A stretch of DNA of 41,312 nt from Comamonadaceae bacterium CG2_30_57_122 (GTDB taxonomy: Bacteria > Pseudomonadota > Gammaproteobacteria > Burkholderiales > Burkholderiaceae_C). This document shows, piece by piece, positions 15,417 to 30,558 of this stretch; position 1 is the stretch's first letter; the number at the start of each line of letters is the position of its first letter. The notes under the pieces were generated by a model that was not told the origin of the DNA, made no database searches, and saw only the letters and a program-made list of their open reading frames with translations. A program made the translations under genes and the position numbers. Location: contig MNXW01000213.1 in assembly GCA_001871515.1 (NCBI GenBank), positions 1-41,312 on the forward strand, read 5' to 3'.

Positions 15417-15439
15417 ATGATTCATGCAAAATGAATCTT
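15417..15439 (+). promoter_or_regulatory. Probable NsrR operator upstream of norC
   Basis: Core ATTCATGCAAAATGAAT, two inverted ATTCAT half-sites. Read on the other strand, 18 of 23 positions agree with the consensus I remember for NsrR. It lies 77 bp upstream of the norC ATG. TTGGAT (15391) with TATATG (15414) could form a promoter whose start region the operator would cover. A near-identical palindrome lies at 21108-21130 and nsrR itself is at 25.7 kb. Confidence 0.7.
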
Positions 15440-25713: not shown

Positions 25714-26199
25714 ATGCGCCTGACCCAATGGACTGATTACACCTTGCGCGTCTTGATGTATTGCGCTGCCTGTGTGGGGCGTGAAATGCCTGTGACGATC
25801 ACAGAAATTGCCGAGAGTCATGGCATTTCGCGTAGTCACCTGACCAAAATTGTGCAGGAGCTGGGGGCTCGTGGCTGGCTTGAAACCACAAGGGGTCGGG
25901 GCGGTGGAATGCGTTTGCTGGTACGGGCGCAAGACATTTGTCTGGGTGAGGTTGTGCGTGCCACCGAAACTGACTTTGCCATGGTGGAATGTTTCGATGC
26001 AGATCTAAACCAATGCCGTTTGAGCCAGCATTGCAGACTCAAAAGTGTTCTGAATCAGGCCACGCAGAGTTACCTGGCCGTGCTTGACGGGATTACTTTG
26101 GCCGATTTGATTGCGCCTGCTGGTGGCATCAAATTGCCGTTGAATGCCAAGCGTGTGTTACTGCGTCCGGGCATCCCTGTTCAGCCCAAGCAAACCTGA
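25714..26199 (+). CDS. nsrR: Rrf2-family nitric oxide-sensing repressor NsrR
   Basis: 161 aa. Begins MRLTQWTDYTLRVLMYCA, with a winged-helix recognition segment (ITEIAESHGISRSHLTKIV) and wing (TTRGRGGG). Three Cys in ECFDADLNQCRLSQHC (C-x7-C-x5-C) are the Fe-S cluster ligands typical of NsrR-type Rrf2 proteins. NO nitrosylates the cluster and releases DNA. Two palindromes that fit NsrR binding occur in the same island, upstream of norC and of the DUF2249 gene. It is divergent from the nnrS operon and convergent with narL. Confidence 0.92.
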   Translation: MRLTQWTDYTLRVLMYCAACVGREMPVTITEIAESHGISRSHLTKIVQELGARGWLETTRGRGGGMRLLVRAQDICLGEVVRATETDFAMVECFDADLNQCRLSQHCRLKSVLNQATQSYLAVLDGITLADLIAPAGGIKLPLNAKRVLLRPGIPVQPKQT

Positions 26200-28872: not shown

Positions 28873-30060
28873 TCAGGCCAGACGTTCAAAAATGGCTGCA
28901 ATACCTTGGCCGCCGCCAATGCACATCGTGACCAATGCGTAGCGCCCACCCGTGCGCTCCAACTCATACAAAGCCTTAACGGTGATGAGTGCTCCGGTGG
29001 CACCAATCGGGTGACCCAGCGAAATGCCTGAGCCATTGGGGTTGACCTTGGCCGGGTCCAGACCCAGGTCACGACTGACCGCACAGGCCTGGGCGGCGAA
29101 GGCTTCATTGGCTTCGATCACATCCAGGTCGGCTACCGTTAAACCCGCTTTTTTCAAAGCCAATTGGGTTGCCGGTACCGGGCCAATGCCCATGTGCATC
29201 GGGTCTACACCAGCGTGGGCATAGGCCACCAGGCGTGCCAGTGGTTTCAGGCCGCGTGCTTTGGCAGTAGCGGCTTCCATCAGCACCACGGCGGCGGCGG
29301 CATCATTGATGCCAGAGGCATTGCCTGCAGTGACGGTTCCATTTTCCTTTTGGAACGCAGGCTTGAGTTTGGCCAGATCGGCCAGTGTGCAGTTGGGGCG
29401 GTAGTGTTCGTCGGTGTCAAACACCACATCGCCTTTGCGACTCTTGAGGGTGACGGGCATGATCTGGCTTTTGAAGTAACCGGCTTCAATGGCGCGCTGG
29501 GCACGGTTGTGGCTTTCTACCGCCAAGGCATCCTGGTCGGCGCGGGTAATGCCCCACTTGGCAGCGATGGCTTCAGCGGTCACACCCATGTGCACGGTGT
29601 GGAACGGGTCGTTCAAGGCACCCACCACCATGTCGACCATTTTGGTGTCACCCATGCGGGCACCCCAGCGCATGTTCAGACTGGCGTAGGGCGCACGGCT
29701 CATGGCTTCAGCGCCGCCACCAATGGCAATGTCGCAGTCGCCGAGCAAAATGCTTTGACTGGCGCACACAATGGCTTGCAGTCCTGAGCCGCACAGTCGG
29801 TTGACGTTAAAGGCAGGCACGCTCTGGGCACAGCCGCCGTTGAGTGCCGCCACGCGTGACAAATACATGTCTTTGGGTTCGGTGTTGACCACATGACCAA
29901 ACACCACGTGGCCCACTTCATCACCCTTGACCTGGGCGCGGCTCAATACCTCGCGCACGATCTGGCCGGCTAATTCGGTTGGGGCAATGTCTTTCAGGCT
30001 GCCGCCGTAGGTACCAATGGCAGAGCGGGCTCCGCTCACAATCACAACTTCACGGGTCAT
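28873..30060 (-). CDS. bktB: Beta-ketothiolase BktB-like (acetyl-CoA C-acyltransferase)
   Basis: 395 aa, full-length thiolase. Catalytic Cys in NRLCGSGLQA (~90), NEAFAAQA, His in LGHPIGATGA and the second Cys in MCIGGGQGIAA. From memory the sequence tracks the Ralstonia/Cupriavidus BktB pattern, e.g. NPNGSGISLGHPIGATGAL. BktB condenses acyl-CoA with acetyl-CoA for PHA precursor supply or beta-oxidation. AAGGAG precedes the ATG. A perfect FNR-type box lies ~107 bp upstream but is better placed for the divergent hpf. Confidence 0.9.
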   Translation of the reverse strand: MTREVVIVSGARSAIGTYGGSLKDIAPTELAGQIVREVLSRAQVKGDEVGHVVFGHVVNTEPKDMYLSRVAALNGGCAQSVPAFNVNRLCGSGLQAIVCASQSILLGDCDIAIGGGAEAMSRAPYASLNMRWGARMGDTKMVDMVVGALNDPFHTVHMGVTAEAIAAKWGITRADQDALAVESHNRAQRAIEAGYFKSQIMPVTLKSRKGDVVFDTDEHYRPNCTLADLAKLKPAFQKENGTVTAGNASGINDAAAAVVLMEAATAKARGLKPLARLVAYAHAGVDPMHMGIGPVPATQLALKKAGLTVADLDVIEANEAFAAQACAVSRDLGLDPAKVNPNGSGISLGHPIGATGALITVKALYELERTGGRYALVTMCIGGGQGIAAIFERLA

Positions 30061-30160
30061 CGCATAGCTCCTTAACGGGTTAAAAAGAACAGTTTTCCAT
30101 CAATTTGAGTGTGCATCTTAGCGGTTGACTCTGGCAAGCGTTTGGACTCGCGATCAAAAT

Positions 30161-30174
30161 TTGATGGTTATCAA
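30161..30174 (+). promoter_or_regulatory. Perfect FNR/ANR/DNR-type box upstream of hpf
   Basis: TTGATGGTTATCAA is an exact TTGAT-N4-ATCAA match, embedded in a longer palindrome with 9-bp arms (30157-30178). TATCAT at 30196-30201 is a fair -10. The implied start point near 30208 would place the box centre at about -41, the class II activator position. Whether FNR or a NO-sensing DNR binds cannot be told from the motif. Confidence 0.75.
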
Positions 30175-30240
30175 ATTTCCGAGGTGCGGTGTGGCTATCA
30201 TCAGACTTAACCGTCGTGGTTGCTTTAAAAGGAGAAAAAC

Positions 30241-30558
30241 ATGCAAGTTCAGATTCACACCGATAACCACATTGAAGGCACAGAGGCTATGGGCAAGTGG
30301 GTGACCACCAGCATCAAGGAAGCTTTGGCTCGTTTTGCAGGGCAGATTACCCGGGTAGAGGTTCATTTCAGCGATGAGAATGCTGGCAAGAAGACCAGCC
30401 CTGAAAACAAGCAATGCATGCTCGAAGCCCGTATGGAAGGACTGCAACCCTTGGCTGTCAAGCACCATGCTGCTAACCTCAACCAGGCGCTGGATGGCGC
30501 TTGCGAAAAACTGATTCACCTGATTGAAAGCACCTTGGGTCGCAAAACCAAGGGCTGA
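30241..30558 (+). CDS. hpf: Ribosome hibernation-promoting factor (HPF/RaiA family, short form)
   Basis: 105 aa, single-domain HPF/RaiA fold (MQVQIHTDNHIEG, RVEVHFSDENAG, ALDGACEKLIHLIEST). It binds the decoding region of the 30S subunit and silences ribosomes in slow growth. AAGGAG precedes the ATG. The gene stands alone, away from rpoN/pts. A perfect FNR-type site at an activating distance suggests induction when oxygen is absent. It converges with the pseudouridine synthase gene: its stop (30558) touches that gene's last base. Confidence 0.9.
   Translation: MQVQIHTDNHIEGTEAMGKWVTTSIKEALARFAGQITRVEVHFSDENAGKKTSPENKQCMLEARMEGLQPLAVKHHAANLNQALDGACEKLIHLIESTLGRKTKG

Follow-up and report, generated by a model that had tools for sequence, protein, structure and literature searches.

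A divergent second S30AE paralog behind a conserved, predicted FNR-family class II promoter in a Comamonadaceae bacterium

INTRODUCTION

Ribosome hibernation is usually linked to stationary phase, ppGpp or cAMP-CRP, and it is chiefly in mycobacteria that a direct transcriptional coupling of hibernation to oxygen has been established. There, hypoxia acts through DosR to induce the factor RafH (MSMEG_3935 / Rv0079; PMC10799931). In Shigella, yfiA is upregulated under anaerobic conditions and is absent from the authors' list of FNR-dependent genes (PMC4229854). A short factor bound to the 70S ribosome of A. baumannii (7m4z chain v) is described as a homology model fitted to density, so that its sequence assignment is that of the authors (PMC8263017). 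In the passages searched, three papers on FNR, Anr or DNR regulons name no hibernation factor among the targets (PMC6588701, PMC2908626, PMC5398030), and no direct precedent for FNR/Anr control of hibernation factors was found in the literature searched, which covered few subscription journals.

Here, we analyzed a 41,312-nt stretch of DNA (the window) from Comamonadaceae bacterium CG2_30_57_122, in which a preliminary description had placed hpf behind a perfect FNR/DNR box and had called the resulting connection between anoxia or NO and ribosome hibernation a link not usually drawn for hpf. The latter statement is too strong in view of the hypoxic induction of RafH through DosR and the anaerobic rise of yfiA in Shigella.

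RESULTS

The window contains one exact TTGAT-N4-ATCAA site, TTGATGGTTATCAA, and four sites with one mismatch, which agrees with the earlier remark that the exact site was unique. As had also been described, this box lies inside a larger palindrome and is followed by TATCAT at the spacing of a class II promoter (Table 1). With a gap of 21 nt between the box and the −10 element, the box centre falls at about −40.5 or −41.5 for a transcript starting at 30208 or 30209, respectively. The box centre is 73 bases upstream of the ATG at 30241, and this distance is the one given for hpf in the preliminary description; the gene that starts there, however, is a divergent S30AE paralog.

Table 1. Features of the promoter region and the flanking genes in the window
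Feature	Position	Strand	Basis
bktB (beta-ketothiolase), divergent neighbour	28873..30060	-	NF042999 above cut-off
Palindrome AAATTTGAT-GGTT-ATCAAATTT, perfect 9-bp arms, encloses the TTGATGGTTATCAA box	30157..30178	.	Direct reading
FNR/DNR-type box TTGATGGTTATCAA	30161..30174	+	Exact match, no mismatch
−10 element TATCAT	30196..30201	+	21 nt after the box; TATSAT kept in orthologs, gap 21–22 nt
Predicted transcription start	30208..30209	+	Inferred from the −10 position
Ribosome-binding region AAAAGGAGAAAAAC before the ATG	30227..30240	+	Sequence; AGGA kept in orthologs
Divergent second S30AE (HPF/RaiA-like) paralog, 105 aa	30241..30558	+	PF02482, 36 bits; below the TIGR00741 cut-off

The 105-aa product scored 36 bits against the S30AE family PF02482, above the gathering score of 23.7, and 27.9 bits against the HPF/YfiA equivalog TIGR00741, below the cut-off of 40.9. 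The other S30AE gene of the genome, located on contig C282, reached 91.9 bits with PF02482 and 106.6 bits with TIGR00741 and represents the canonical HPF. With the canonical copy on that contig and the TIGR00741 score below the cut-off, the assignment of the window gene as housekeeping hpf was rejected. In the GTDB family to which the source genome belongs, canonical HPF was present in 246 of 251 genomes and the divergent paralog in 94. Members of the divergent subfamily are also present in Nitrospira, Chlorobi, Geobacter, Pseudomonas and others, and the named genomes closest by the 105-aa protein belong to Rhodoferax.

When a profile of 20 subfamily members was compared with HPF/RaiA chains in the PDB, 7m4z chain v scored 121.6 bits and all other chains scored 22–32 bits. 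The AlphaFold model of the 105-aa protein (pLDDT 88.8) also had 7m4z_v as its best PDB match, with a TM of 0.91 and an rmsd of 1.2; the TM for 8rd8_D was 0.82. The protein consists of a single domain, with no dimerisation domain. RMF (PF04957) was not found in the source genome (2.95 Mb in 336 contigs), which is only 84.7% complete; the lack of RMF suggests that a 70S mode is likelier than a 100S mode. Two copies of the divergent subfamily were observed in some genomes of the same genus (G252, G253 and G284, at loci L307, L308 and L306), suggesting that accessory hibernation factors can multiply. One same-genus copy (L292, G284:C1:4429508-4429807) is reported with an in-frame TAA, which may mark a paralog in decay or stem from the end of the sequence.

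We examined 11 named close orthologs from Rhodoferax, Polaromonas and Comamonadaceae, which share 64–78% identity with the window protein. All 11 have a variant of TTGAY-N4-RTCAA at exactly −73/−74 from the start codon, some with TTGAG and one with ATGAC, and in all 11 TATCAT or TATGAT (TATSAT) follows the box after 21–22 nt. Conservation in relatives, which the preliminary description had suggested checking, was thus confirmed for this group. A gap of 21 nt was present in ten sequences, that of the window among them. These were ten different 41-mers, and the majority-base fractions were 0.94 and 0.96 in the two half-sites, 0.98 in the −10 element and 0.54–0.72 in the spacers and flanks outside these elements (gap 0.65, upstream 0.54). 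Drift of the inner bases to TTGAC/GTCAA in relatives probably yields weaker sites. A second set of ten orthologs with 62% identity or more was drawn from the genus of the source bacterium, and eight of them have the box promoter; five of these eight duplicate promoters of the named set, leaving three new ones. The two orthologs without it were L286 and L290, the latter with TATGAT retained and the box lost. In homologs at about 50–58% identity, the box was absent.

The wider family set comprised 92 paralogs from the same GTDB family, window included. When one mismatch was allowed, 13 of the 92 had a box within 350 bp, compared to 0–1 for the control patterns. Using the composite pattern TTGAYN4RTCAA-N20-22-YATSAT with up to two mismatches allowed, we detected the promoter ahead of 14 of the 92 paralogs, where shuffles gave an expectation of 0.2, and ahead of 11 of the 80 in the named set, where 0.1 were expected; 78 of the 92 were without it. 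The composite promoter occurred in none of 698 other upstream regions of the same loci and ahead of none of 50 canonical hpf genes, and the corresponding Fisher values for 14/92 were 3e-14 and 0.0016, relatedness being ignored. Of 30 canonical hpf genes, 3 (L229, L242 and L248) have a box at −139 to −182 with no more than one mismatch; one of these boxes is exact, and the class II −10 element is absent.

On the tree, the composite label required 8 changes (at least 4 of them forced), compared to 22.5 for shuffled labels, indicating that carriers of the composite promoter cluster on the tree, chiefly within the Rhodoferax group and a second clade; the strict box label required at least 9 changes. 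This history may consist of two gains, or of one gain and many losses. In this second clade, the −10 element is mostly CATGAT with the same 21-nt gap, whereas the distance to the ATG ranges between about −60 and −95 and the neighbouring genes vary. At loci L085, L120 and L081 the gene upstream runs in the same direction, which leaves the S30AE gene as the only possible target there.

Across the source genome, exact TTGAT-N4-ATCAA occurs 12 times, compared to once for the reversed control pattern, and the composite of box, 21-nt gap and YATSAT without mismatch occurs only at the window locus. The exact motif also precedes ccoN and a cytochrome oxidase subunit II gene. Elsewhere in the genome, three exact sites lie within coding sequence (L002, L006 and L011). 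An exact FNR-type site, TTGATGCTTATCAA, is flanked by a lexA-like gene on one side and a divergent asparaginase-like gene on the other (L005, contig C161:15590-15603); oxygen-linked SOS control would be unusual. On the minus strand of contig C288 (L010/L251, 1518-1558), an FNR-type box with a −10-like TACCAT 21 nt after it faces the gene for a small protein with two CBS domains. Archaeal HibA is an HPF/RaiA domain fused to a CBS module (PMC13324472). A link between S30AE paralogs and CBS-domain genes was rejected, as CBS matches occurred in only three of the searched loci and these genes are not general neighbours of the paralogs.

Within the window, no FNR box was found between the narK-type and norC-type genes. 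This intergenic region carries the palindrome GATTCATGCAAAATGAATC (15419-15437), with 0 expected by chance, which may be bound by the Rrf2/NsrR-like regulator whose gene lies at 25714-26199.

The genome encodes a [4Fe-4S]-type FNR, which scored 240.2 bits against NF008365 (cut-off 228) and has an N-terminal Cys motif; its gene adjoins hemN-type and ccoG-type genes. The absence of DNR, as taken from a PF00325 search, was rejected when a PF13545 search led to two DNR-like proteins, one encoded on contig C183 beside nap-type genes and the other on contig C132. Their best PDB match was DNR (3dkw), with 135.7 and 124.4 bits.

DISCUSSION

We propose, with a probability of roughly 75%, that the box is a class II activator site for an FNR-family regulator and drives the 105-aa S30AE paralog, which would park idle ribosomes. 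At low oxygen, a [4Fe-4S] FNR dimer or, in the presence of NO, a DNR-like protein would bind TTGAT-N4-ATCAA centred near −41 and recruit RNA polymerase to TATCAT, leading to transcription of the paralog. Its product would sit in the decoding/tRNA channel of 70S ribosomes that stand idle and would silence their translation, so that ribosomes would be parked during oxygen-short respiration, apart from the housekeeping HPF encoded elsewhere. With the FNR/DNR promoter box conserved, oxygen exhaustion probably switches on the S30AE paralog directly; the paralog most likely serves as an accessory hibernation factor and is controlled by an FNR-family regulator from a class II site. The FNR/DNR class II promoter of the preliminary description is supported, with the box, spacing and −10 element conserved, the −10 element facing the S30AE gene, and FNR and two DNR-like proteins encoded, whereas housekeeping hpf as its target is not.

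Which member of the family reads the promoter is less clear-cut. A plausible though less favoured alternative is that an NO-sensing DNR-like regulator is the main reader, the signal then being denitrification or NO and not low oxygen alone: the TTGAT-N4-ATCAA consensus is common to FNR and DNR, both DNR-like proteins are encoded, one of them next to nap-type genes, and norCB-type and narXL-type genes lie within the window. However, the exact sites ahead of ccoN and the cytochrome oxidase subunit II gene mark typical oxygen (FNR) targets and fit an oxygen regulon, and the norC promoter of the window has a different palindrome and no such box, so we lean towards FNR as the predicted regulator of the S30AE paralog. 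As to the protein, its divergence from canonical HPF, seen in the shortfall against the TIGR00741 cut-off, could reflect another role, such as free 30S protection or RNA binding, with no 70S hibernation. We regard this as unlikely, given a fold and subfamily that are the same as those of the A. baumannii factor modelled in place on its 70S ribosome.

The divergent intergenic location of the box, with the bktB start 107 bases away, raises the question of whether it mainly serves or represses the divergent gene, which is bktB in the window and has a short-chain-dehydrogenase-like start in several relatives. Yet no −10-like hexamer stands at the matching distance on the bktB side, the divergent gene differs in most orthologs while the box and the S30AE-facing −10 element persist, and at distant loci the upstream gene is co-directional. 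A main role for bktB was rejected on the lack of a −10 element and the varying divergent gene, and we consider such a role very improbable. Even less credible is a chance, unused palindrome; exact sites do fall inside coding sequence elsewhere in the genome, but the box, spacing and −10 element are conserved across orthologs and the composite promoter is recurrent.

On a broader scale, it appears somewhat probable that in Burkholderiales-type bacteria a dedicated accessory hibernation factor has gained FNR/DNR-family control and has lost it in part. The outcome would be a respiration-sensing branch parallel to housekeeping HPF, in which oxygen/NO status rather than starvation signals parks ribosomes. 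The conserved FNR-family promoter on the second S30AE paralog suggests a separate ribosome-parking factor for the oxic–anoxic switch in facultative denitrifiers, which, if true, would help explain survival of sudden anoxia. It would also set the two S30AE paralogs apart by their regulation.

Among known systems, RafH resembles the window paralog in being an extra hibernation factor beside the housekeeping one, hypoxia-induced in its case via a dedicated regulator (PMC10799931). In contrast, RafH is a dual-domain long HPF under the two-component regulator DosR, an architecture that the window protein does not share, being a single-domain protein of 105 aa behind a predicted Crp/FNR-family promoter. 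The A. baumannii factor on the 70S ribosome belongs to the same short divergent S30AE subfamily and shares 39% identity with the window protein; that work had a subject other than regulation, and its available part mentions no FNR-type control (PMC8263017). The canonical short HPF and RaiA/YfiA share the S30AE fold and PF02482 with the paralog, but E. coli HPF reaches only about 24 bits against the divergent-subfamily profile, and canonical hpf is near-universal in the family and without the composite promoter, unlike the patchier divergent paralog. What we predict as new here is an additional S30AE factor of one domain whose gene is read from a class II promoter of the FNR family. This promoter has the layout of known class II FNR/Anr/DNR promoters, with TTGAT-N4-ATCAA near −41 and a −10 element 21–22 nt behind it, and differs from them in its target, a ribosome-hibernation-type gene.
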